Below, one piece after another: positions 4,901-40,717 of a stretch of DNA of 43,750 nt. The translations under genes and the position numbers were made by a program. Below the pieces are notes generated by a model. That model ran no database searches, was not told where the DNA came from, and was given only the letters and a program-made list of their open reading frames with translations. Position 1 is the stretch's first letter. Every line of letters begins with the position of its first letter. Source of the stretch: Haloplasma contractile (lineage in GTDB: Bacteria > Bacillota_I > Bacilli_A > Haloplasmatales > Haloplasmataceae); contig JAENYC010000029.1 of NCBI GenBank assembly GCA_016841945.1, positions 1 through 43,750 on the forward strand, read 5' to 3'.

Positions 4901-6565
4901 ATGGATAAAAAATTAAATCGATTAAAATTTGTATTTATCTACAGTATTATATTAGGGTTATTATTTTTAATATTGTATATTGGGTTACTACCCATCTCCT
5001 TATATAGCAATGCATTTCGCTTTTGGCTTATTGTGTTTATTGGATTATGTGCTTTTCCTTTTTTAATCAAATTTAGAAGAGTTTATAAAAATCAATCACG
5101 AATGAATATTGATGTTTCTTTAAATAAAATAAAAAAACAAAAAGTAAGATATGTCTATTATGTGTTAGGTGGCTTGATTATTTTATTTATTATTTTAGGA
5201 ATTTCTACATGGCCACTCTTTAATACTAACCGATATAGAAATTTAATTGATGTAACAGAGAGTCAAGGTTTTGCTCAAAACATAGAAGATTTTAGTGAAA
5301 CGAAAGTACCAATTGTTGACAAAGATTTAGCTTTTCGGTTAGGTGATAAAAAGTTAGGAGAATTGAATTTAGGAAGTCAATTCACTGTGAATAATTATAC
5401 CATGATTGAGATGCAAGGAGAGTTATATTGGGTTGGTGCCTTAGAATACACTGGATTCTTTAAATGGCTAAATAAAAAGGATGAAGGAGTACCAGGATAT
5501 ATTAAAATAAACGCAACTGATACATCAGATGTTGATTTAGTAAGCGAGTATAAAATGAAATATGTCCCTTCTGCTTATTTTGGACAGGATTTAATGCGTA
5601 GAATATATTTTTCAGGAAATATGGATAAGGTATTTAGTGATTATACTGCCTTTGAACTAGATGAAGAAGGTAATCCCTATTATGTTAAGACCGTATTAAT
5701 GAAAAGGTTTGCCTATTCTAGAGGAAGAGATGCAATTGGTGTTGTGGTATTAAATGCGGTAAATGGCGATGTAGATTATTATGATATGAATGAAGTACCT
5801 CATTGGATAGACCGAATACAACCAACAGATATAATTATTGAACAGTTAGGTTATTATGGTAGATATGTTCATGGATATTTTAATACCTTATTTGCGAAGA
5901 AGGAAGTCCTTCAAGTATCAGAAGGATATAGTTATGTATATAATGATGGTAGTTTTTATTTATACACGGGGCTAACCTCAATTGGTGCAGATGAATCTAT
6001 TGTAGGATTTACTTTAACCGATATGAGAACAAAAGAAACCATATTTTATCGAATAGGTGGTGCGACAGAGTTTTCAGCTCAAAATTCAGCCCAAGGTGCG
6101 GTACAGGATTTAGGCTATCGTGCAAACTGGCCTATCTTGGTTAATTTTGAAGAAACACCAACTTATTTTATGACATTAAAAGATGCCGAGGGATTAATTA
6201 AAAAATATGCTTATGTGAATGTAAAGGATTATTCTGTCTTTGGTATTGGTGATTCTTTACAATCAGCTCAAAGTAATTATCGTGAAAACTTAAGAGCTGC
6301 CACAACTAATCCTAATAAAGGAACGGATTTAACGACCGTAACGTCTACTGTTGTTCGAATTGTACCTGTTAATGGTACTTCTAATTATTATTTTGTTTTA
6401 GCAAATGACTCAACCATTGGTTATGTCGTTGCGTTTAATGTCAGTTTTGAAGTTGCGCTTACAGAAGTAGGTGATACGGTCACTATTCAATACTATGAGG
6501 TGAACAATACAAATGTTTATACCGTTGATTCATTTGATAATCTGGCATTAGATATTAATGAGTAA
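4901..6565 (+). CDS. Large membrane protein of unknown function
   Basis: A 554-residue protein with three hydrophobic segments in the first 110 residues (about 11-31, 40-57 and 84-106), followed by some 440 residues without membrane segments. With three N-terminal segments and positive residues between the second and third (KFRRVYKNQSR and KIKKQKVR), the large C-terminal part is predicted outside the membrane. That part is rich in Tyr, Gly and Asp. I do not recognise a family. The start at 4901 follows GAGGTG; a GTG at 4892 lies within that site. It is a single-gene unit with its own terminator. Its size and intact frame suggest a real envelope function. Confidence 0.7.
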   Translation: MDKKLNRLKFVFIYSIILGLLFLILYIGLLPISLYSNAFRFWLIVFIGLCAFPFLIKFRRVYKNQSRMNIDVSLNKIKKQKVRYVYYVLGGLIILFIILGISTWPLFNTNRYRNLIDVTESQGFAQNIEDFSETKVPIVDKDLAFRLGDKKLGELNLGSQFTVNNYTMIEMQGELYWVGALEYTGFFKWLNKKDEGVPGYIKINATDTSDVDLVSEYKMKYVPSAYFGQDLMRRIYFSGNMDKVFSDYTAFELDEEGNPYYVKTVLMKRFAYSRGRDAIGVVVLNAVNGDVDYYDMNEVPHWIDRIQPTDIIIEQLGYYGRYVHGYFNTLFAKKEVLQVSEGYSYVYNDGSFYLYTGLTSIGADESIVGFTLTDMRTKETIFYRIGGATEFSAQNSAQGAVQDLGYRANWPILVNFEETPTYFMTLKDAEGLIKKYAYVNVKDYSVFGIGDSLQSAQSNYRENLRAATTNPNKGTDLTTVTSTVVRIVPVNGTSNYYFVLANDSTIGYVVAFNVSFEVALTEVGDTVTIQYYEVNNTNVYTVDSFDNLALDINE

Positions 6566-6571
6566 AAATTA

Positions 6572-6612
6572 GAAAGCATCTAACAAATATTGATGCTTTC
6601 TTACTTTTTTTG
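6572..6612 (+). terminator. Rho-independent terminator
   Basis: GAAAGCATC (6572-6580) pairs with GATGCTTTC (6592-6600), followed by a T-rich run (TTACTTTTTT). Confidence 0.75.
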
Positions 6613-6689
6613 TCATTTTACGACATAATTATGTGTTACAATTTATATATATGTTGTTATTTGTATAAAAATAGAATGGTGTGATGGTT

Positions 6690-8021
6690 ATGAATAAGGG
6701 AAATAAGTATGGATTACTGAATTATTCAACTGCATATGAATTAATCCATAGTATCATTAAAAAATATGATGATTTTGATAAGGTTTTAAAAGAAGTATTT
6801 GAAATAATGGGTCATTTATTAGGTGTTGATATTTTAGAATTAAATATATATGATCAAAGCTATACTGGTTTTATTAAAAAACAAGTTTGGAAAAGATCAG
6901 GATTAGAGTCCAAACGCTTTTTGAGTATGAAATCAATTTCTTTTGAAAATTCATTGTTTAGTGTTTGTCGAAACTACGAATACATAAAGATAGATGACAC
7001 AAGAAAATTAGATGATGAAATAAAAGATTTTCGTAAGTATTATAAAATGCTTCATATAAAATCACTTTGCGTTTTTCCAATTCATGTCAATGGGGAGACA
7101 GTTGCAGGAATATATTTAAAACATCACATAAAACGAAGGAAATTTACTGAGGAACAAATACAGTTTACCAAGCAATGTCATCAATTAATTGAAAAACGTT
7201 TTGTAAAAGAATATCATAAGATATTACTCGATTTAAATAAAAAAAACTATTTAAAAATTTTTAAAAATTTATTGTATCCATTAGCATTAATTGATTATGA
7301 TTTTAATCTTATTATGGTTAATGATCAATTTGAATCATTATTTAAAGTAACAAATAAAGAATTATTAACACAAGATTTTTTTGAATTTATATCAAAATTT
7401 GAACGAAATCAAATTATAAATATTTGTAAGAAAGCAATGAAACATGAACAAGAAGATTATGAAGTCTTTAAAATGATTGACACAGAAAAGAAAATGATAC
7501 GAATTATCCCCATTCCAATAAATGACAAAGGAGTCAATATTATTGCGATTTTATTTAAAGATGTAACTAAATATAAAATGTTAGAAAGATATTATATTAA
7601 AAAGGCAAATTATGATTTGGTTACTGGTTTACATAATAGGAATTATTATACCAAAGTGTGTAATCAATTATCTGATGAAGATTATCATACAATAGGAATC
7701 GTTGTTTTAGATATTGATAAATTAAGTGAAATAAATCGCTGTTATGGATATGAAAAAGGGAATGAGGTCATTAAAAATGTTTCAGAAGCTTTAAAAATGA
7801 TATTTTATAATGAACATTTAATTTCTAGAATAGGAGATGATGAATTTATTGTCATTATATTGGATCAAACAAAAGATATAATAATACAAAAAATAAAAAA
7901 ATTAAAAAATTTAGTTGAGAAGCAAAAAGTAGGGAATTGTATTACCATTGGTTATAGTTTTTCTAATACTAAAGTTAATTCTATTCAAGAGATAGTAGAA
8001 AAAGTAAAATTAAGACATTAG
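6690..8021 (+). CDS. GAF-PAS-GGDEF protein with altered active-site motif
   Basis: A 443-residue cytoplasmic protein. Residues 15-170 form a GAF-like domain (CVFPIHVNGETVAGIYLKHH at 127-146), residues 185-295 a PAS-like domain, and residues 305-443 a GGDEF domain. The GGDEF start YDLVTGLHNR (308-317), LDID (340-343) and the Asn at 349 are present. The signature is RIGDDEF at 380-386, where GGDEF would be expected, so the second Gly is Asp. The domain also ends early, lacking the usual ALYKAK helix. The family makes c-di-GMP; this copy may be inactive or a GTP or c-di-GMP sensor. There is no membrane segment and no RxxD inhibitory site. The start at 6690 is preferred because GGTGTGATGG precedes it. 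Confidence 0.8.
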   Translation: MNKGNKYGLLNYSTAYELIHSIIKKYDDFDKVLKEVFEIMGHLLGVDILELNIYDQSYTGFIKKQVWKRSGLESKRFLSMKSISFENSLFSVCRNYEYIKIDDTRKLDDEIKDFRKYYKMLHIKSLCVFPIHVNGETVAGIYLKHHIKRRKFTEEQIQFTKQCHQLIEKRFVKEYHKILLDLNKKNYLKIFKNLLYPLALIDYDFNLIMVNDQFESLFKVTNKELLTQDFFEFISKFERNQIINICKKAMKHEQEDYEVFKMIDTEKKMIRIIPIPINDKGVNIIAILFKDVTKYKMLERYYIKKANYDLVTGLHNRNYYTKVCNQLSDEDYHTIGIVVLDIDKLSEINRCYGYEKGNEVIKNVSEALKMIFYNEHLISRIGDDEFIVIILDQTKDIIIQKIKKLKNLVEKQKVGNCITIGYSFSNTKVNSIQEIVEKVKLRH

Positions 8022-28117: not shown

Positions 28118-29287
28118 ATGAAGAAACTTAAAATATTAATCATTACAGCACCATATGGAAATGGACATTTTGCTGTTTCTAATAGTTTAATTGAAGTACT
28201 TAAAGAACATCAAAATATTGAATACATCTTATATGATTTATATACAGAAGATTATCCAGCAACAACAAGGTTTATTAAAAAGTTTTATTTAAGTACCTAT
28301 AAAAAAGGATTGAATCAACAAGCCTATCGTTTTTTTTATTATGGTTCTGATAAATTATTTGATTTAAAAATTGCTAAACCCTATGTTATGTTTGGCATTA
28401 AAAAATTAATTAAAAAATTAGAGGAAATAAGACCTCATATTATTTTAAATACTTTTCCGGTGAGTTGTACATATAGTTTAAAAGCTGAAGGATTTAATAT
28501 TCCTGTATATACAGTTATCACAGATTATTTTGCTAATACAAATTGGATTAGTAAACATACCCGTATTCATTTTTTGGCAGCACCGAGTGTATCGATGCAA
28601 TTAAGACATAAAGGAATCGATAAAAGTCAATATGAAGTGACAGGTATTCCTGTGAAACCCATTTTCTATAAAGAATATAGTGATGAAGAGATTAGTCATT
28701 TAAAGAATAAGTTCAAAATCGATGAAAATAAAAAAATTATATTACTCGTTGCAGGTGCGCATGGTGTGGTCCCAAATATGAAAAAGATTATTTCTTCTAT
28801 CACAAGTGAAGAAAATATACAATTACTTGTTGTATGTGGTAAAAACCGTCGTTTATATAATCGATTGAATCGTAAATTTGGTAGACTCAAAAATTTGCAA
28901 ATATTTGAATTTGTATATAATATGCATGAACTAATGCGGGTTTCAGACATCATGCTTACAAAACCCGGTGGAATTACGATGACAGAAGCAGCCAATATTG
29001 GAATACCCGTTATATTATATCGCCCGGTTTATGGGCAGGAGTTAGAGAATGCGATTTATTTCAGTAGTAAACGAGCAGCTACTATTGCCTTACAGGAAGA
29101 TGAATTAGTTTATAAAGCATTGACCATTTTAAATGATGAAGAATTACTAAATGATATGAAACATAATATAAAAAAAATCTCGATAAAGCATTCTGCCTCA
29201 CTTATTATTGATACATTAATTCGTGATTATCAGTTATTTTTAAAGGAGCAACATGAAAATAAATCGTATAAAGAAATTAAAAAATGA
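28118..29287 (+). CDS. ugtP: Diacylglycerol glucosyltransferase
   Basis: A 389-residue GT28 glycosyltransferase close to Bacillus UgtP (YpfP). Recognised blocks are APYGNGHFAVSNSL, INTFPV, VAGAHGV, VVCGKN and TKPGGITMTEA, then PVYGQELENA, all in the order of the Bacillus protein. It transfers glucose from UDP-glucose to diacylglycerol to make glucolipids, the anchor for lipoteichoic acid in other Bacilli. The start follows AGGAGG. It directly follows galU, its likely supplier of substrate, and its last 35 bases overlap recX. Confidence 0.93.
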   Translation: MKKLKILIITAPYGNGHFAVSNSLIEVLKEHQNIEYILYDLYTEDYPATTRFIKKFYLSTYKKGLNQQAYRFFYYGSDKLFDLKIAKPYVMFGIKKLIKKLEEIRPHIILNTFPVSCTYSLKAEGFNIPVYTVITDYFANTNWISKHTRIHFLAAPSVSMQLRHKGIDKSQYEVTGIPVKPIFYKEYSDEEISHLKNKFKIDENKKIILLVAGAHGVVPNMKKIISSITSEENIQLLVVCGKNRRLYNRLNRKFGRLKNLQIFEFVYNMHELMRVSDIMLTKPGGITMTEAANIGIPVILYRPVYGQELENAIYFSSKRAATIALQEDELVYKALTILNDEELLNDMKHNIKKISIKHSASLIIDTLIRDYQLFLKEQHENKSYKEIKK

Positions 29288-30053
29288 TTTATATGAAATA
29301 TCGATTGAATGCCAAGATGAAATAAAAAAACTAAAAATTTCTGAAGACTTTGTGATTAAATATCAATTGTATCAAAATAAACAAATAAGTGATGATGACC
29401 TTTTATTATTAGAACAACTAGGGAATTATTCTAAATTATATAGTAAAACATTAAATTATATTTCATATAAAATGCGAACAGAAGATGAGGTTGTAACTTA
29501 TTTGGAAAAGAAGGGATGTTTAGAACCTTATTTATCTGAAATAATAAATAAACTAAAAAGACTTAATTATATAAATGATAAAATGTATGCTGATATGTAT
29601 GTAAAACATCAATGCGATGTGAATAAAAAGGGGCCAAGGTTAATACAATCAGAGTTAACTAAGAAAAATTTAAACAAAGAGATGATAAATCGCAGTTTAC
29701 AGTTTATTACTGTAGAAAAAATTAATCAAAATATTCATTATTTAATATCCTATTATGATAGATTAAATAAAAATAAATCAATTAAGAAGTTGAAAGAGAA
29801 CATCTTACGTAATTTAATGGGTAAAGGATATGAATATGAAATGATTAAAATTTTATTAAATGATTATCCATTTTCTGACCATAATAATGATGTAGCATTA
29901 CTTGAAAAAGAAGTAATTAAAGTATATCAAAAATATCAAAAGAAATATCAAGGTTTTGAATTAAAAAATCGTGTGATAAAATCATTACTTAATAAGGGAT
30001 TTTTGTATGATGATATTTTGAGTTCATTGGCATCTATTCATATGGAGGGATAA
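29253..30053 (+). CDS. recX: Regulatory protein RecX
   Basis: A 266-residue RecX. Helical repeats are visible: TLNYISYKMRTEDEVVTYLEKKG, then INDKMYADMYVKH, GPRLIQSELTKKNL and LRNLMGKGYEYEMI. Length equals that of Bacillus RecX (264). It modulates RecA filaments; recA is not in the window. The start at 29253 has AAGGAG 5 bases upstream and overlaps ugtP by 35 bases in another frame. Its stop lies 3 bases before the glgB start, so it is embedded in the glucan operon. Confidence 0.92.
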   Translation: MKINRIKKLKNDLYEISIECQDEIKKLKISEDFVIKYQLYQNKQISDDDLLLLEQLGNYSKLYSKTLNYISYKMRTEDEVVTYLEKKGCLEPYLSEIINKLKRLNYINDKMYADMYVKHQCDVNKKGPRLIQSELTKKNLNKEMINRSLQFITVEKINQNIHYLISYYDRLNKNKSIKKLKENILRNLMGKGYEYEMIKILLNDYPFSDHNNDVALLEKEVIKVYQKYQKKYQGFELKNRVIKSLLNKGFLYDDILSSLASIHMEG

Positions 30054-30056
30054 TTT

Positions 30057-31940
30057 ATGACAGAACCCACTGATTTTATTAAATATTTATTTCATAAGGG
30101 AGAATTAAAAGAAGCATATCATCATTTTGGTAGTCATGTGATTTTCGATGATATGAAAAATGTGATAGGTGTTTCTTTTTGTGTCTATGCACCTCATGCT
30201 AAGGAAGTCAGTGTGATAGGGGATTTTAATGGTTGGGATTGTTCTAAGAATCCTATGAAAAAAGTCTCAGATGAAGGGATATGGACTATTTATATAGAAG
30301 GTGTGAAAGAGTACGATAACTACAAGTATGAACTCATTACATGGGATAATCATCATATAAAAAAAGCAGATCCTTTCGCCTTTCATTCAGAAACGAGACC
30401 TAAGACAGCGAGTAAAGTATATCATATAGATGGATATGAATGGCATGATATAAAGTATTTAAATAATTTAAAAGAAAAGAACATATATGAAATCCCAATA
30501 TTAATTTATGAATTTCATTTTGGGACCTGGAAGAAAAAAGAAGATCAAAATTATTACTCCTATAGTGAAATGGCTGATGAGGTCATTCCATATTTATTAG
30601 AACAAGGGTTTACCCATATTGAAGTATTACCCATTATTGAACATCCTTATGATGGATCTTGGGGATATCAAGGAACGGGTTATTATTCCGCAACAAGTCG
30701 TTATGGCACACCTAAAGATTTGATGTACTTTATTGATCGTTGTCATCAGGCAGGTATTGGTGTCATATTTGATTTTGTACTCGGACATTTCTGTCGCGAT
30801 GAACATGGACTCTATCTATTTGATGGAGAACCAACTTATGAGTATCCCTTTGATGATGTAAGAGAAAATCCTGTTTGGGGAACGGCTAATTTTGATTTAG
30901 GTAAAAATGAAATAAGAAGTTTTCTTATATCTAGCATCATGTTTTGGATGGAATATTACCATGTAGATGGTTTTAGAATCGATGCTGTATCCAATATTAT
31001 ATATTGGCTAGGCGATAAGAATCGTGGTGTAAATTATAAAGGGATTGAGTTTTTACGTTTATTGAATACAGCTGTTTTTGATTTTCAGCCCAATGCATTA
31101 ATGATCGCTGAGGATTCTACAGATTTTCCGATGGTTACAAAACCTGTCTATATGGGAGGTTTGGGCTTTAACTATAAATGGAATATGGGATGGATGAATG
31201 ATGTATTAGAATATTTTGAAGAGGATTCTTTATTTAGAAAGTATTTACATAATAATATTACCTTTGGGTTAGTATATGCTTATTCAGAAAACTTTATCTT
31301 ACCATTTTCACATGATGAAGTGGTACACGGTAAACGGTCTTTAATTAACAAAATGCCAGGTGATTACTGGCAAAAATTTGCAAATTACAGACTTTTAATG
31401 GGATTTTTAATGACTCATCCTGGTAAAAAATTAATCTTTATGGGCGGTGAATTTGCCCATATGCATGAATGGAAAGATAAAGAACAATTGGATTGGCATT
31501 TATATCAATATCCATCGCATGATTCAGCTAATCGATTTGTTCGCGATATCATGCAAATCTATAAAACAGAGAAAGCATTGTATGAAACCGACCACATAGG
31601 CGAAGGCTTTTTATGGATTGATTGTGATAATGCTGATCAAAGTATTTTTTCTTTTATAAGAAAAAGTAAAGCTAATGAAGAGGTGTTATTGATTATTATG
31701 AACTGTACACCACTTGTTTTTCATCATTATAAAATAGGCGTACCATATGAAGGAACCTTTGAAGAAATTATAAATAGTGATAAAGATTATTATGGTGGTT
31801 CTAATCAGTATAATGGAGATTTGATTCATACATTTAAGGGTAAAATGCATGGATATAATCAATATATAAAAATATTAATACCTCCATTAGGTATATCAAT
31901 ATTAAAATTAAAAAGTAAGAAGGTTAAGGCGGGAGAATAG
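30057..31940 (+). CDS. glgB: 1,4-alpha-glucan branching enzyme
   Basis: A 627-residue GH13 branching enzyme with an N-terminal CBM48 domain (about 20-115; VCVYAPHAKEVSVIGDFNGW region). Catalytic residues are Asp309 in DGFRID, Glu352 in IAEDST, and the transition-state pair His419-Asp420 in SHDEVVHG. YDGSWGYQGTGYYS and the ends DGFRIDAV are standard for GlgB. It introduces alpha-1,6 branches into glycogen. Starts 3 bases after recX. A hairpin terminator overlaps its stop codon, yet glgC follows closely. Confidence 0.96.
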   Translation: MTEPTDFIKYLFHKGELKEAYHHFGSHVIFDDMKNVIGVSFCVYAPHAKEVSVIGDFNGWDCSKNPMKKVSDEGIWTIYIEGVKEYDNYKYELITWDNHHIKKADPFAFHSETRPKTASKVYHIDGYEWHDIKYLNNLKEKNIYEIPILIYEFHFGTWKKKEDQNYYSYSEMADEVIPYLLEQGFTHIEVLPIIEHPYDGSWGYQGTGYYSATSRYGTPKDLMYFIDRCHQAGIGVIFDFVLGHFCRDEHGLYLFDGEPTYEYPFDDVRENPVWGTANFDLGKNEIRSFLISSIMFWMEYYHVDGFRIDAVSNIIYWLGDKNRGVNYKGIEFLRLLNTAVFDFQPNALMIAEDSTDFPMVTKPVYMGGLGFNYKWNMGWMNDVLEYFEEDSLFRKYLHNNITFGLVYAYSENFILPFSHDEVVHGKRSLINKMPGDYWQKFANYRLLMGFLMTHPGKKLIFMGGEFAHMHEWKDKEQLDWHLYQYPSHDSANRFVRDIMQIYKTEKALYETDHIGEGFLWIDCDNADQSIFSFIRKSKANEEVLLIIMNCTPLVFHHYKIGVPYEGTFEEIINSDKDYYGGSNQYNGDLIHTFKGKMHGYNQYIKILIPPLGISILKLKSKKVKAGE

Positions 31941-31983: not shown

Positions 31984-33102
31984 TTGCATAAAGAAGTGGT
32001 GGCCATATTACTTGCTGGTGGTAGAGGCTCAAGATTAAAAGCATTAACTGATACAATCCCTAAGCCTGCCCTGCATTTTGGAGGAAAATATCGAATGATT
32101 GATTTTCCTTTAAGCAATTGTACCAATAGTGGAATTGATACCATTGGCATCATTACACAATATGAACCTATTGAGTTAATGTCTTATATAGGAATAGGAA
32201 GTGCTTGGGATTTAGACGTACTAGATGGTGGTATTACTGTATTACCACCTTACACCTCGAAACAAAAAGGTTTTTATTGGCAAAAAGGTACTGCCCATGC
32301 TGTTTATCAACATTTAAATTATTTAGAATTATATCATCCAAAATATGTTTTAATTTTATCAACTGACCATATATACAAAATGGATTATAGTGAATTAATC
32401 GATTATCATACTCAAAAAAAAGCTGATTTAACGATTTCATCCATCAAAGTAACAGAGGAAGAAGCTAAACAATTTGGTGTATTAACGATTGATAAAAATA
32501 ATAAAATTATCTCGATTAAAGAAAAGCCAAGTACACCAGAATCATTACTGGCTTCTCAAGGAATATATGTATTTAATTATGAAATTTTGAAGCGATTATT
32601 AAAAGACATAACAAATGAAGATGCTAATGAAACTGATTTTGCTAAACATGTCATTCCCTACATGATTGACAAATACTCTGTTTATTCTTATTTATTTAAT
32701 GGTTACTGGAGAGATATTGGAACGATTTATTCGTTATGGAAGACAAATATGGAATTAATTGATTATCCAAAAGGAATGAATCTATCAGATAAGAAATGGC
32801 CGATATTTTCAAATAGTGAACATAAACCAGCGCATCGCGTTTATGCACAGGCACAAATTCAACAATCCCTTGTGAGTGAAGGGTGCAAGATATTTGGGAA
32901 CGTTTATCACTCAGTTTTATCAAGTGGTGTTTTTATCGATAGAAATAGTACCGTGAAAAATTCCGTTATTATGCCAATGGTACAAATAGGAAAAGGTTGT
33001 TTAATTGAAAACGCCATTGTTAAAATGAATCTTAATATTGCAGATGATAAAAAATTGATTTATGATGAAGTAATGTTAGTGACAGAAGAGGTGTTAACAT
33101 GA
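31984..33102 (+). CDS. glgC: Glucose-1-phosphate adenylyltransferase, catalytic subunit
   Basis: A 372-residue ADP-glucose pyrophosphorylase. The nucleotide loop AGGRGSRL (11-18) and KPALHFGGKYRMIDFPLSN are intact, as are GTAHAVYQ, EKPSTP and GYWRDIGT. It forms ADP-glucose, the donor for glycogen synthase. The start is a TTG at 31984 after AAAGGATGAT, with no ATG alternative. Its stop overlaps the start of the glgD-glgA gene by 4 bases (ATGA). In other Bacillota GlgC pairs with the non-catalytic GlgD, here fused to GlgA. Confidence 0.94.
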   Translation: MHKEVVAILLAGGRGSRLKALTDTIPKPALHFGGKYRMIDFPLSNCTNSGIDTIGIITQYEPIELMSYIGIGSAWDLDVLDGGITVLPPYTSKQKGFYWQKGTAHAVYQHLNYLELYHPKYVLILSTDHIYKMDYSELIDYHTQKKADLTISSIKVTEEEAKQFGVLTIDKNNKIISIKEKPSTPESLLASQGIYVFNYEILKRLLKDITNEDANETDFAKHVIPYMIDKYSVYSYLFNGYWRDIGTIYSLWKTNMELIDYPKGMNLSDKKWPIFSNSEHKPAHRVYAQAQIQQSLVSEGCKIFGNVYHSVLSSGVFIDRNSTVKNSVIMPMVQIGKGCLIENAIVKMNLNIADDKKLIYDEVMLVTEEVLT

Positions 33103-35501
33103 AGTCATTATTACTAGGTGTGATAGATGCCACAGTTTTATATCATGATTTACATCAATTGACACTTCATCGTTTACCAAGTGCGATTCAATTTGGTGGG
33201 CGATATCGTTTAATCGATTTTAGTCTATCTAATTTTAAAAATTCTGGTATTAGAAATGTGGCTATTTTTCCTAATGGTAATTATCGCTCATTAACCGACC
33301 ATGTTTCATCAGGGAAAATCTGGGATTTAGACAGGAAGAAGGATGGATTATTCATATTACCTCCAAAAAGAAAGATAGAACAAACTAAAGCGTTTATATC
33401 CTTCAATCGTTTAAAAGAACACATGGTTTATTTTTTACGAAGTAAACAAACCTATGTTGTGATTACAAGTGGTGTCATTGTATGGAATATTAGTTTTATT
33501 GAGCCATTAAAGCAGCATATAGAAACAAAAGCAGATATTACAGAAATTAAATATAAAAACAAACGATTAAATACATTTATTTTAAAAAAAGAATATTTAA
33601 TCCATCTTATATTACAACATGAATATTTAGGTTTTCATAATTTGATCGAGGTTATCGCATTTTCTAAGAATAATAAAATAAATGTGTATAATCATGATGG
33701 ATACACTAAAATGATTACGACCATTCATGACTTATATGAAAGCCATATGGATATGTTAGATGAAACAATAGAGAAACAAGTATTTAGAATAGATAGACCT
33801 ATTCTTTCTAAAACAAAGGACTTACTACCAGCTTTTTATAAAGACAAAGCAGTTGTAAAGAATGCGATGATTGCCAGTGGTACTCAAATTAACGGTCATA
33901 TAGAAAATAGTATTATCTCAAGGGAGGTAAAAATTAGCGATGGCGCGAAAATAAATCATTCAATTATTATGCAGGAATCGATTATAAAACCCAATGCGAT
34001 TTTAGAGTATTGTGTAATTGATAAACATGCGGTAATCGGTCACAATGTTGTATTAAAAGGAACAAGAGAAAGGCCATATGTTGTCTCTAAAGAAGAAAAA
34101 ATAATAACAAGATCAAAAATGAGAATTTTGCATTTGGCAACTGAATGTGCACCATTTGTTAAAGCGGGTGGACTTGCAGATGTTTTAGCTGCTTTACCAA
34201 AACATCAACGTGATTTAGGAATAGAAGTGAGTGTTTGTATTCCTTTATATAAACAAATTAAAAATAAGTATCAAAATAAAATGCAGTATTATCATCAATT
34301 TTCAATTGATGATAATACTTGTAAAATATTTTCATTCAATCGAGATGGAGTTCGTTATTATTTTATAGAAATCGAACAATACTTTAATACAGCAAATATT
34401 TATGGGAATGAAGATGATTTTATTCGTTATTATTATTTAAATCTTTGTACCATCGAGTTAATTAAACAGCTTGATTATAAAATTGATTTGGTTCATTTAC
34501 ATGATTATCATTTTGGATTAATTCCTATATTATTAAAGAAAAGGTTTAACTATCGAGTCAAAACCTGTTTAACGATACATAATTTAAAATATCAAGGAAT
34601 ATATCATGATAAAATATTAGTGAATAAATATTTGCATGATATTATAAGTGAATCAAAGATTAATTTTATGAAACTAGGAATTATGTATGCAGATATTATC
34701 ACGACTGTATCTGAAACATATAGTAAAGAGATACAGTATCCATTTTTTGGTGAAAATTTACAAGATATTATTATTAAAAGAAAAAAGGATTTATATGGTG
34801 TTTTAAATGGTTTGGATGAAGAAATCTATAATCCAAAAACTGATATATCAATTGTTAGTAATTATGATATTCATACAATTGATAGAAAATTAGAGAATAA
34901 ACGGTTTCTTCAAAAGCAATTTTCATTTACTGTAGATGAAGATATACCGTTAATTGGAATGGTATCAAGATTGGTTTTACAAAAGGGTATAGATTTAGTC
35001 TTAGGTGTATTTGATGAAATAATGAAAATAGAACATGTACAATTTGTTTTATTAGGGACTGGGAATAAAGATTACGAAATACAGTTTACAGAATTAGAAA
35101 AAAAATACAATCATCGTGTTAAAATGAATATTGGATTTAATTCCTTTAATCCTAACCAAATATATGCAGGAACTGATATCTTTTTAATGCCGTCCAAATA
35201 TGAACCTTGTGGATTATCACAGATGATTGCCCTAAAGTATGGAAGTATTCCAATTGTAAGAGAAACTGGTGGATTAAAGGACACTGTTTTTGCTTATAAT
35301 GAATTCACAAGAAATGGGAATGGATTTACTTTCACAAATTATAATAGAGAAGATATGTTGCATACTATTAAACGAGCCATTAGTTTTTTTTATCAAAAGA
35401 AACACTGGATAAGAATTATTGAACATGCGATGAAAAGTAATTTCAGTTATCAAAAAACAGCTAGAAATTATTATTCTTTGTATGAATCTGTATTGAAATA
35501 A
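33099..35501 (+). CDS. glgD-glgA: GlgD-GlgA fusion: ADP-glucose pyrophosphorylase regulatory subunit plus glycogen synthase
   Basis: An 800-residue protein in one frame. Residues 1 to about 330 are GlgD: they start LLGVIDA, then FGGRYRLIDFSLSNF; the nucleotide loop GGxGxRL is lost, which fits the non-catalytic GlgD subunit, and a left-handed beta-helix end is present (PYVVSKEEKI). Residues 341-800 are a full GT5 glycogen synthase: MRILHLATECAPFVKAGGLADV at 341, the Glu-containing PSKYEPCGLSQM, and RETGGLKDTV. The joint is about 12 residues. An ATG at 34119 opens the GlgA part but has no ribosome site. In relatives these are usually two genes. The start overlaps glgC and the stop TAA is one base into the glgP region. 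Confidence 0.93.
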   Translation: MKSLLLGVIDATVLYHDLHQLTLHRLPSAIQFGGRYRLIDFSLSNFKNSGIRNVAIFPNGNYRSLTDHVSSGKIWDLDRKKDGLFILPPKRKIEQTKAFISFNRLKEHMVYFLRSKQTYVVITSGVIVWNISFIEPLKQHIETKADITEIKYKNKRLNTFILKKEYLIHLILQHEYLGFHNLIEVIAFSKNNKINVYNHDGYTKMITTIHDLYESHMDMLDETIEKQVFRIDRPILSKTKDLLPAFYKDKAVVKNAMIASGTQINGHIENSIISREVKISDGAKINHSIIMQESIIKPNAILEYCVIDKHAVIGHNVVLKGTRERPYVVSKEEKIITRSKMRILHLATECAPFVKAGGLADVLAALPKHQRDLGIEVSVCIPLYKQIKNKYQNKMQYYHQFSIDDNTCKIFSFNRDGVRYYFIEIEQYFNTANIYGNEDDFIRYYYLNLCTIELIKQLDYKIDLVHLHDYHFGLIPILLKKRFNYRVKTCLTIHNLKYQGIYHDKILVNKYLHDIISESKINFMKLGIMYADIITTVSETYSKEIQYPFFGENLQDIIIKRKKDLYGVLNGLDEEIYNPKTDISIVSNYDIHTIDRKLENKRFLQKQFSFTVDEDIPLIGMVSRLVLQKGIDLVLGVFDEIMKIEHVQFVLLGTGNKDYEIQFTELEKKYNHRVKMNIGFNSFNPNQIYAGTDIFLMPSKYEPCGLSQMIALKYGSIPIVRETGGLKDTVFAYNEFTRNGNGFTFTNYNREDMLHTIKRAISFFYQKKHWIRIIEHAMKSNFSYQKTARNYYSLYESVLK

Positions 35502-35515
35502 TGGAAGGTGAATGC

Positions 35516-37945
35516 ATGCCGACAGGAATTTTTAGAAATAAAAAAATATTTACTGAGACTTATATTCAACGCATTGAAGATATGTATGGTAAGAGATTCA
35601 ATGAAACATCTCATCATCAAAAATATTATGCACTGGCTACTTTAGTCAGGGAATATGTGAGTAAAAATTGGATTGAATCTAAAGAAAATACAGAAAAAAA
35701 TAAACACAAACAAGTTTTTTATTTTTCTTTAGAGTTTTTAATGGGTCGATTATTAACCAATAATTTAGTTAATTTAGGCATAAGAGATACAGTTAAAAAT
35801 GCATTGTCAGATTTGAATTTAGATATAGGTGAGATAGAAGAGGTAGAAAATGATGCAGGATTAGGTAATGGTGGCTTAGGAAGACTGGCAGCTTGTTTTC
35901 TTGATTCACTGGCTTCATTATCTTATCCTGGTCATGGGAATTGCATAAGATATCGTTATGGTTTTTTTAACCAAAAGATTATTAATGGTTATCAAGTTGA
36001 AATTCCTGATCAGTGGCTTCAAAGGGGATTTGTTTGGGAGGTTAGAAAATCAAATGAAAGTATATCTGTTCCATTTTATGGTGAGATTCGGGTTGAAAAA
36101 AATAATGGGAAGATTATCTTTAGTCATGAAAACTGTATTTGTGTGAAAGCAGTTCCTTATGATGTTCCAATTGTTGGTTTTGATACAAAGACAGTTAATC
36201 ATTTAACTTTATGGTCAGCAGAACCATGTGAACATTATCCTGAAGGTATCAACGCTGCTGATTATGAAAAAGATGTGAGAAAGATATCTGAGTTTTTATA
36301 TCCAGATGATTCAACCGATGAAGGAAAAATTTTACGATTAAAACAACAATACTTCTTTGTAGCGGCAGGATTAAGACGAATCATCCAACATCATAAAGCA
36401 CTGTATAAAACCGTGAACAATTTTCATGAAATGGTGACCTTACATATAAATGATACCCATCCTGCATTAATTGTACCTGAATTAATGCGTTATTTAATCG
36501 ATGAAGAAGGTTTAGATTGGGATAGTGCTTGGGTTATTACAAGTCATACTTGTGCTTATACAAACCATACTATCTTAGCAGAAGCACTAGAAAAATGGCC
36601 AGTTCGTCTTTTTAAACCATTGTTACCAAGAATTTATATGATAGTAGAAGAGATGAATCGTCGGTTCTGTTTAGAATTAATCAATCGATATGGAAAAAAT
36701 AATTCTAAGGTGACAGAATTAGCTATTATCAGTCATGATTTAGTTCATATGGCACACATCGCGATAGTCGGTTCATTTAGTGTGAATGGCGTAGCTGAAC
36801 TACATACTAAATTATTAAAGAATTTTGAAATGAAAGAATTTAATAAAATCTTTCCAAATAAATTTAATAGTAAAACAAATGGAATCACCCATAGGAGATG
36901 GGTGTATCAAGCCAATCCAGAGTTGACAGATTTTTTAAATCATTATTGTGGTAAAAATTGGGTAAAAGATATAACAAAATTAAAGAATTTGTTACCATAT
37001 GTAAAAGATGAAAAAGCTAAGAAAGAGTTTTATAAAGTTAAACAAGCAAGGAAAAAAGTACTAGCAGAAAAAATTAAAAATACACAAAGTATTCAACTAG
37101 ATGTTAATTCAATATTTGATATACAAGTTAAAAGGCTTCATGAATACAAAAGACAATTGATGAATGTATTACATATCATGTATTTATACAATCGATTGAA
37201 AGAAGAACAATCCTTTTATCATCATTTTTATCCTCAATCTTTTATATTTGGAGCAAAAGCAGCCAGTAGTTATTTTTTAGCTAAAAAAGTCATTAAGTTA
37301 ATCAATTCTGTGAGTGAAATCATTAATAAGGATGAACACGTCAATGATAAAATAAAAGTAGTATTCGTTGAAAATTATAATGTTTCATATGCTGAAGACA
37401 TTATGCCTGCAGCTAATTTATCTGAACAAATTTCAACTGCTTCTAAAGAAGCGTCAGGGACTGGAAATATGAAATTTATGATGAACGGTGCTATTACCAT
37501 AGGAACTTTAGATGGCGCAAATATTGAAATATCAGAACTTGCTGGTATTGAAAATGAGTTCATCTTTGGATTAAGTGCAGATGAAGTGAATGATTTATAT
37601 GAAAACAATACCTATAGTCCTTGGGATATATATCATAAAGACCCTAGCTTGCAACGCGTACTAGATCAATTAATTAATGGCTTCTTTAAGAATGTGCAAA
37701 AAGATGAGTTTAAAGATATTTATGATAATTTATTACATCGTGGAGATAAGTACTTTGTATTAAAGGATTTTGATAGTTATAGAAAAACACAGGAAAAAGC
37801 AAATCAAACTTATAAAAATCAAGATAAGTGGTTAGAAATGTCACTGATTAATATTGCCAATTCCTATTACTTTTCAAGTGATAGAACGATTGAACAATAT
37901 GTTAAAGAGATATGGCATTTAGAAAAAATGGTTTTTGATGAATAA
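35516..37945 (+). CDS. glgP: Glycogen phosphorylase
   Basis: An 809-residue GT35 enzyme with the pyridoxal-phosphate Lys653 in GTGNMKFMMNGA, NDAGLGNGGLGRLAACFLDS near residue 113, and RVKRLHEYKRQ-like KRLHEYKRQ near 535. It releases glucose-1-phosphate from glycogen ends. The start at 35516 follows GGAAGGTG; the ATG at 35501 lies in the preceding stop (TAATG) and has no good site. It is the last gene of the glg run and is followed by a strong terminator. Confidence 0.96.
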   Translation: MPTGIFRNKKIFTETYIQRIEDMYGKRFNETSHHQKYYALATLVREYVSKNWIESKENTEKNKHKQVFYFSLEFLMGRLLTNNLVNLGIRDTVKNALSDLNLDIGEIEEVENDAGLGNGGLGRLAACFLDSLASLSYPGHGNCIRYRYGFFNQKIINGYQVEIPDQWLQRGFVWEVRKSNESISVPFYGEIRVEKNNGKIIFSHENCICVKAVPYDVPIVGFDTKTVNHLTLWSAEPCEHYPEGINAADYEKDVRKISEFLYPDDSTDEGKILRLKQQYFFVAAGLRRIIQHHKALYKTVNNFHEMVTLHINDTHPALIVPELMRYLIDEEGLDWDSAWVITSHTCAYTNHTILAEALEKWPVRLFKPLLPRIYMIVEEMNRRFCLELINRYGKNNSKVTELAIISHDLVHMAHIAIVGSFSVNGVAELHTKLLKNFEMKEFNKIFPNKFNSKTNGITHRRWVYQANPELTDFLNHYCGKNWVKDITKLKNLLPYVKDEKAKKEFYKVKQARKKVLAEKIKNTQSIQLDVNSIFDIQVKRLHEYKRQLMNVLHIMYLYNRLKEEQSFYHHFYPQSFIFGAKAASSYFLAKKVIKLINSVSEIINKDEHVNDKIKVVFVENYNVSYAEDIMPAANLSEQISTASKEASGTGNMKFMMNGAITIGTLDGANIEISELAGIENEFIFGLSADEVNDLYENNTYSPWDIYHKDPSLQRVLDQLINGFFKNVQKDEFKDIYDNLLHRGDKYFVLKDFDSYRKTQEKANQTYKNQDKWLEMSLINIANSYYFSSDRTIEQYVKEIWHLEKMVFDE

Positions 37946-38596: not shown

Positions 38597-40717
38597 GTGA
38601 GACACTTATTTAATGCATATTTAGATGATTTTAATAAAGTAACCATTTTACTTCCAAAGGAATATTTCCATGGAAAAAGTCAATATTTTACATTAGTAAA
38701 TGAATATGAGGAATTTGATTTATATATTGAACATACTGCTGATATCGGAGATTATATAAAATATATTTGTTTATTACCAGCTTTTATTGAATTAGGTGTA
38801 TTATACTTTGTCAAAGATGAATATGGTAATCAAACAGTTTTACAATCAGGTGCAATTGTTAGAAGTGAAAGATTTGATATTTTATATTATTATGAAAAAA
38901 AGGATTTAGGGTTTACTTATTATCCTGACCATACCATTTTTAAATTATGGGCACCAACTGCGACAAAAGTATCATTAATATTAATCAATCAGAATAATGA
39001 ACAATTTTTTGCAATGCAAAGAAAACAAAAAGGAATATATGAAGTGTCAGTTTCTGGTGATTTAGATTCATGCTTATATAGATATTTAGTTACAAACAAC
39101 AACAACGATAAAGAAATCATTGATATATATGGTATTAGTTCTAATGCAAATTTTAGATATAGTGCAGTTATTAATCCTAATAAACTAATAGATGTGAAAC
39201 CCCTTATGAATCCAATTGAAAATCCAACTGATGCAATCATTTATGAAATGAGTATAAGAGATTTTACAATAGATAAAAACAGTGGTGTTAAAAATAAAGG
39301 AAAGTATTTAGGATTAACAGAAAAAGGGACTAAAACCAGTAAAAATCATGTCAGTGGTATAGATTATTTAGTAGAATTAGGCATTACTCATGTTCAATTG
39401 CTTCCATTTTTTGATTTTGGGGGAATTGATGAATTAGAACCTGAAAAAATGTATAATTGGGGTTATAATCCCGAGCAGTATAACACACCAGAAGGGAGTT
39501 ATAGTTTAAATCCTAATGATGTTTATTCTCGATTAAATGAGATAAGACGGATGATTAATACTTTTCATGAACATAATATTGGGATTATTATGGATGTCGT
39601 TTACAATCATGTACATGATATCAGATATTTTCCCTTTGATTATATGGTTCCTGGTTATTTTTATAGATATGATTATCATGGTATGCCATCAAATGGTTCT
39701 GGTTGTGGCAATGACATTGCATCAGAAAGAGAAATGGTTCGAAAATTCATCATTGATTCAGTGAAATATTGGGCTAGGACTTATAAAATAGATGGATTTC
39801 GTTTTGATTTAATGGGTATGATAGATATAGAAACGATGAATCGAATCAGGCGTGAATTGTATGATATCAATCCACATATTTTGATATATGGAGAAGGATG
39901 GAACTTAAATACACCATTACCTAACTCAATGAAATCAACCATTACAAATGCTTATAAATTACCAGGCATTTCATTTTTTAATGACAAGTACCGAGATATG
40001 ATAAAAGGAAATACATTTCAGGAAAAACATTTTGGTTATCCTTTTGGTCATTTTGGGTATATAGAGGATGTTAAACAGTTATTAGCTGGTAGTGTAGGGT
40101 ATAAAAAACAAAAAACTTATATGTTTTATGAACCCTATCAAACCATTAATTATCTAGAATGTCATGATAATATGACAATGTATGATAAAATTAAAATAGC
40201 GTTAGAACATAAACCTAAAGAAGAAAGGATAAGAAGGCAAAGACTTGCAACGAGTATGTTGTTGTTGTCGCAAGGCATTCCCTTTATTCATGCTGGACAA
40301 GAATTTTATCGGACTAAGTATGGTGTAGAAAATAGTTATAATTCTCCTGATAAAATTAATATGATTAATTGGAAAAGAATGGATGACTATATTGATGATG
40401 TGAATTATTTTAAAGAGCTCGTAAAAGTGAGAAAGCATCATCAAGCCTTTCACCTTAAATCTACCTCTCTGATTAAAAGACACCTTACTTTTTTAGAAAG
40501 TGAAAAAGGAATCATTATTATGATTTTAAAAGATGTTTCAAAATATGGAATCTTTAATGATATACAGATCATTTTTAACTGTAAAAATGAGGAATTTGTC
40601 TATAAGTTTGAAGATGATTACAAATTAATTTTTGATGAAAAAGCTTTTATTAAAGGCATAGATATCCCTAATTATTACACGATTAAAGCAATTAGTGTGG
40701 TTGTTATCGGAAAATAA
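38597..40717 (+). CDS. pulA: Type I pullulanase (glycogen debranching)
   Basis: A 706-residue GH13 pullulanase. N-terminal accessory and CBM48 domains (about 1-185; TIFKLWAPTATKVSLIL) precede the barrel. The type I signature YNWGYNPEQYNTPEGSYS is complete, with MDVVYNH, the nucleophile Asp in DGFRFDLMGM, Glu in IYGEGWNL and His-Asp in LECHDNMT. There is no signal peptide, so it acts in the cytoplasm on alpha-1,6 branches left by glgP. The GTG start has GGAGG 7 bases upstream. Confidence 0.95.
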   Translation: MRHLFNAYLDDFNKVTILLPKEYFHGKSQYFTLVNEYEEFDLYIEHTADIGDYIKYICLLPAFIELGVLYFVKDEYGNQTVLQSGAIVRSERFDILYYYEKKDLGFTYYPDHTIFKLWAPTATKVSLILINQNNEQFFAMQRKQKGIYEVSVSGDLDSCLYRYLVTNNNNDKEIIDIYGISSNANFRYSAVINPNKLIDVKPLMNPIENPTDAIIYEMSIRDFTIDKNSGVKNKGKYLGLTEKGTKTSKNHVSGIDYLVELGITHVQLLPFFDFGGIDELEPEKMYNWGYNPEQYNTPEGSYSLNPNDVYSRLNEIRRMINTFHEHNIGIIMDVVYNHVHDIRYFPFDYMVPGYFYRYDYHGMPSNGSGCGNDIASEREMVRKFIIDSVKYWARTYKIDGFRFDLMGMIDIETMNRIRRELYDINPHILIYGEGWNLNTPLPNSMKSTITNAYKLPGISFFNDKYRDMIKGNTFQEKHFGYPFGHFGYIEDVKQLLAGSVGYKKQKTYMFYEPYQTINYLECHDNMTMYDKIKIALEHKPKEERIRRQRLATSMLLLSQGIPFIHAGQEFYRTKYGVENSYNSPDKINMINWKRMDDYIDDVNYFKELVKVRKHHQAFHLKSTSLIKRHLTFLESEKGIIIMILKDVSKYGIFNDIQIIFNCKNEEFVYKFEDDYKLIFDEKAFIKGIDIPNYYTIKAISVVVIGK

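Follow-up and report, generated by a model that had tools for sequence, protein, structure and literature searches.

A fused GlgD-GlgA protein of Haloplasma contractile and its relatives that probably tethers glycogen synthase to ADP-glucose pyrophosphorylase

The committed step that makes ADP-glucose and the step that uses it are normally carried out by separate soluble enzymes. In G. stearothermophilus, GlgC and GlgD are reported to form an unregulated heterotetramer, in which GlgD lifts the catalytic efficiency about 3-fold (PMC9093745). A precedent for association of the two steps is starch synthase SSIII, which associates with AGPase (cited in PMC4507757). Through the analysis of a 43,750-nt stretch of H. 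contractile DNA (hereafter called the window), we found a single gene, glgDA, that joins GlgD to GlgA. It lies in an operon with the order glgB-glgC-glgDA-glgP, with a pullulanase-type gene beyond, and the features of this region are as follows.

30057-31940, + strand: glgB, branching enzyme.
31984-33102, + strand: glgC, catalytic subunit of ADP-glucose pyrophosphorylase, 372 aa, TTG start; 4-nt overlap (ATGA) with glgDA.
33099-35501, + strand: glgDA, fused GlgD-GlgA of 800 aa in one open frame, above the curated cut-offs of TIGR02092 and TIGR02095; 57 genomes of the class share the frame.
33099-34088, + strand: GlgD domain, short type, catalytically dead, residues about 1-330; nucleotidyltransferase-like fold, with a left-handed beta-helix from about residue 243.
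34089-34121, + strand: joint, residues 331-341; K331 invariant, Q333 in 55 of 58 sequences; pLDDT 75.
34096-34101, + strand: A6 run; loss of one A would lead to a stop (out-of-frame TAA TAA just before the GlgA ATG at 34119).
34119-34121, + strand: relic GlgA start codon (Met341), with no Shine-Dalgarno sequence 5' of it (3 of 6 matches); lost in 52 of 58 sequences.
34119-35498, + strand: GT5 glycogen synthase domain, residues 341-800.
35501-37945, + strand: glgP, glycogen phosphorylase; its ATG shares one base with the glgDA stop codon, and the order is repeated in related loci.
38597-40717, + strand: pullulanase-type debranching enzyme, also found downstream in the sister species.

Just 5' of glgB, window positions 28118-30053 hold an MGDG-synthase-type glycosyltransferase gene and a RecX-like gene overlapping its end.

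Is the fused frame real? The glgDA frame in the window starts with ATG and runs through 800 codons with no internal stop, and both halves score above the curated NCBIfam cut-offs: the GlgD half against TIGR02092 with 281.6 bits (cut-off 236.6; the match extends to residue 334), and the GlgA half against TIGR02095 with 503.3 bits (cut-off 328.45; residues 341-797). Since the A6 run is followed by an out-of-frame TAA TAA, a one-base assembly error that merged two genes is a fair suspicion. The orthologues rule it out, however, and we consider such an indel vanishingly improbable, because the identical frame recurs in 56 further genomes of the class (57 of 395 in all), several of them single-contig assemblies. 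No stop interrupts the frame in the orthologues from the sister species (70% identical), from a second genus of the family (52%) or from more distant families (about 37-45%). The first-pass annotation had claimed one uninterrupted GlgD-GlgA frame of 800 aa, and the open reading frame, both NCBIfam models and the orthologues bear this out. The search that it suggested for other proteins with GlgD followed by a GT5 domain recovered the fusion in these 57 genomes, and the error that might have removed a stop is thereby excluded. Its further claim, that the fusion had not been described before, is supported as far as the open-access full texts searched extend, none of which was found to describe a GlgD-GlgA fusion. 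The first 300,000 characters of a 2024 review of glycogen-pathway fusions name other fusions and do not mention GlgD (PMC11046441). The predicted tryptic peptide GINVVQISTECVPFYK of T. bilis MMM721 (locus L005) would start no later than any separate GlgA; the main text of a T. bilis proteome paper mentions no glycogen proteins.

How widely is the fusion distributed? Among the 395 genomes sampled from the class, 65 match GlgDA at E <= 1e-130, and 57 of these have an unbroken joint. Left out of the 57 are six genomes of family f19, in which a stop separates the halves, and two genomes with separate genes (G074 and G082). The unbroken fusion spans five families (f1, f11, f12, f20 and f22). Its carriers include T. 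faecis TC023, T. sanguinis MOL361, T. bilis MMM721, Xianfuyuplasma coldseepsis zrk13 and the metagenome-assembled Mollicutes bacterium B1Sed10_81, in whose family 33 of the 41 sampled genomes match the fused frame. With the GlgD half as the query, almost every short-type GlgD found in the class proved to be fused; the unfused ones are a 109-residue fragment in G214 and the free copies in H. contractile, its sister species, G074 and G082. The fusion is absent from the 349 genomes of the class of Robertmurraya and from the 196 genomes of the class of Maledivibacter, where the best matches all have stops between the halves. A contig scan gave mostly unfused loci and one fused locus among the matches listed. 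We conclude that the fusion is real, old and widespread in one branch, including the gut genus Turicibacter and deep-sea wall-less bacteria, and is not peculiar to the H. contractile genome. Two other candidates were rejected: in families f16, f17 and f19, the matches that suggested a GlgD-GlgA frame (about 850 residues) contain an internal stop, and the inspected loci have separate genes, and a GlgC-GlgA fusion suggested by frames of 886 and 894 residues in two Turicibacter genomes has a stop between the two open reading frames.

Next, we compared the GlgD half with the GlgC encoded upstream in the same operon, whose active-site motifs are intact in the alignment. The GlgD half has neither the GGxGxRL loop nor the catalytic Asp, and it is missing a strip of about 36 residues, which includes the EKP segment that binds glucose-1-phosphate, together with its Lys. 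Free GlgD shows the same deletion of about 36 residues both in Bacillaceae and in the H. contractile genome, and the deletion is absent from the GlgD of about 370 residues in Clostridium and Paenibacillus. As the deletion is shared with free GlgD, the fused half belongs to the short type and its inactivity is older than the fusion. The GlgD half has diverged no more quickly than the GlgA half (49% and 48% identity in the mean over pairs; identity to the sister species 72% and 68%), which indicates that it is under constraint. Moreover, the alignment shows strongly conserved GlgD motifs common to the fused half and free GlgD.

The GlgA half is predicted from its sequence to be an active glycogen synthase. 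Residues K355, H494, R624, K629 and E702, which are invariant in 54 aligned fusions, correspond to K15, H161, R300, K305 and E377 of E. coli glycogen synthase, which we take to be its catalytic and donor-binding residues. The KxGGL donor-site loop of GlgA adjoins the N-terminal GlgD half. The first-pass description of a non-catalytic GlgD-like half without the GGxGxRL loop thus agrees with the alignment, and that of a complete GT5 half with the TIGR02095 score and the active-site residues; the joint, put there at about 12 residues, measures about 11 and is constant in length in 58 sequences. From K309 to E349 inclusive, all 58 distinct fused sequences have 41 residues, and several GlgA loops vary; this constancy could be mere inheritance. 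The GlgA start Met is retained in six of the 58. Synthesis of a separate GlgA from an internal start was rejected, as only one of the 58 has, near the joint, an in-frame start preceded by a good Shine-Dalgarno sequence.

AlphaFold2, using the 54-sequence alignment, modelled GlgDA with a pLDDT of 91.8 and a pTM of 0.63. The predicted GlgD and GlgA folds are secure, and their relative orientation in the model is not fixed. Foldseek matched a GlgDA model built from 12 sequences to E. coli glycogen synthase with a TM-score of 0.90 (by target); the other matches were ADP-glucose pyrophosphorylases, with TM-scores of about 0.6.

How might the fused protein act? In 28 of 30 loci glgC either adjoins glgDA directly or overlaps it, and contig ends cut the remaining two; this makes a GlgC-GlgDA complex the simplest mechanism. 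We favor the view that GlgDA is a pathway fusion in which GlgD docks on GlgC and so tethers glycogen synthase to ADP-glucose pyrophosphorylase; it is the most economical reading, and on the present evidence a fairly probable one. The supplier and the consumer of ADP-glucose would then probably be held in one complex. The non-catalytic GlgD half has most likely kept its pairing with GlgC, the product of the gene directly 5', as is the case for free GlgD in Bacillota; the assembly would probably be GlgC2-GlgDA2, and GlgA would hang from the GlgC/GlgD core via the joint of about 11 residues. Such a complex would produce ADP-glucose and consume it at once in a fixed stoichiometry, which would raise the local ADP-glucose concentration and recruit the pyrophosphorylase to the growing glucan. 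This reading stops short of strict channeling. Shared allosteric control, which the first-pass annotation had offered beside channeling, appears less likely than tethering: the fused GlgD is of the short Bacillaceae type, and the characterized GlgC/GlgD of Bacillales, from G. stearothermophilus, is reported to be unregulated (PMC9093745). We regard as rather unlikely the stronger proposal that GlgC and GlgDA form an ADP-glucose metabolon, which evolved once, was kept across the family of Haloplasma, Turicibacter and the Izemoplasma-type lineages, and hands the donor to the tethered synthase so that little of it mixes with the bulk pool.

The catalytic death of GlgD, and its placement N-terminal to GlgA beside the donor-site loop, would also suit a GlgD half that has lost its pairing with GlgC and become a regulatory or localization domain of glycogen synthase. 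This seems very unlikely to us, since glgC lies directly 5' wherever the locus is visible, often with overlapping ends, and since the fused GlgD keeps the motifs that it shares with free GlgD.

How did the fusion arise? All of the fused rows fall on one side of a branch, with SH-aLRT values of 90 in the GlgD tree, 98 in the GlgA tree and 100 in the combined tree, all three being quick searches without bootstrap. These trees are compatible with a single origin, whether or not the fusion later passed from one family to another. In G082, the TAA stop of GlgD directly abuts the ATG of GlgA in the same frame, and removal of this TAA codon would yield, by count, the same 41-residue spacing; in Robertmurraya, glgD and glgA overlap. 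These arrangements suggest the route, namely that the stop codon was lost between abutting or overlapping short-type glgD and glgA. G074 and G082 are an analogue of the pre-fusion state, not a demonstrated ancestor, because the GlgA tree and the combined tree both place them with Bacillaceae. Two genomes of family f11 (L099, 2420-4900; L100, 3318-5783) have short glgD and glgA abutting in frame, with only a stop codon between them.

As glgD and glgA are neighbors at many loci of Bacillota, and genomes with short GlgD already have them abutting or overlapping, one small mutation would be enough to fuse them. The loss of the stop may have been fixed by drift, with GlgD binding GlgC and no kinetic gain beyond a 1:1 supply, and the lack of a fixed interface between the halves in the AlphaFold2 model is consistent with this. 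We hold this neutral origin to be possible, if on balance unlikely: no return to split genes is seen within the fused clade, whose 58 sequences have diverged to about 40% identity, and the joint has kept its length.

Second, unfused glycogen genes occur in several carriers. The H. contractile genome has a second set (G000:C22, L049 8145-9566; G000:C70, L050 3569-5730), with a free GlgA of 473 aa, a GlgC of 382 aa and a short GlgD of 338 aa, the last being 39% identical to the fused half. The sister species has a free glgA with an in-frame TAA near its start (G001, L032 about 5555-6976), either broken or misread, so that the fused copy is the apparent intact synthase there. Turicibacter and Izemoplasma-type genomes have a second pair of glgC and glgA with no glgD beside it (L035, L036, L038, L042, L043, L057 and L058). 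The presence of separate GlgC and GlgA in several carriers indicates that the fusion is dispensable for glycogen synthesis as such, and the fused system may therefore serve a different condition or glucan pool.

The covalent link, kept over a wide divergence and beside separate GlgC and GlgA in several carriers, makes cultured organisms available as a natural system for tests. It also suggests that a dead GlgD subunit may serve as a scaffold, and GlgDA is a ready-made tool for engineering glucan synthesis. For annotation, the carrier genomes would be misread by searches that expect glgD and glgA as two genes, and by pipelines that assign a single name to the whole protein.

The closest arrangement is found in Bacillaceae (Robertmurraya, Neobacillus, Cytobacillus and Bacillus sp. 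FJAT-27225), which have a free short GlgD of 339-351 aa, 39-43% identical to the fused half, the same GT5 GlgA and the gene order glgBCDAP. Unlike GlgDA, however, these are two proteins, encoded by overlapping genes in different frames. The GlgC/GlgD pyrophosphorylases of G. stearothermophilus, Ruminococcus albus and Streptococcus mutans likewise pair an inactive GlgD with GlgC (PMC9093745), but no GlgA is attached to their GlgD. Among other fusions, the GlgA-GlgB protein of Criblamydiaceae and Waddliaceae is also a glycogen-pathway fusion with GlgA; it joins the synthase to the branching enzyme, in organisms with a defective GlgC-GlgA pathway, whereas GlgDA joins the synthase to the donor-making complex (PMC11046441). 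TreS-Mak/Pep2 of the GlgE pathway resembles GlgDA in that consecutive steps toward a glucan donor are fused, but in other enzymes and in another pathway (PMC11046441).
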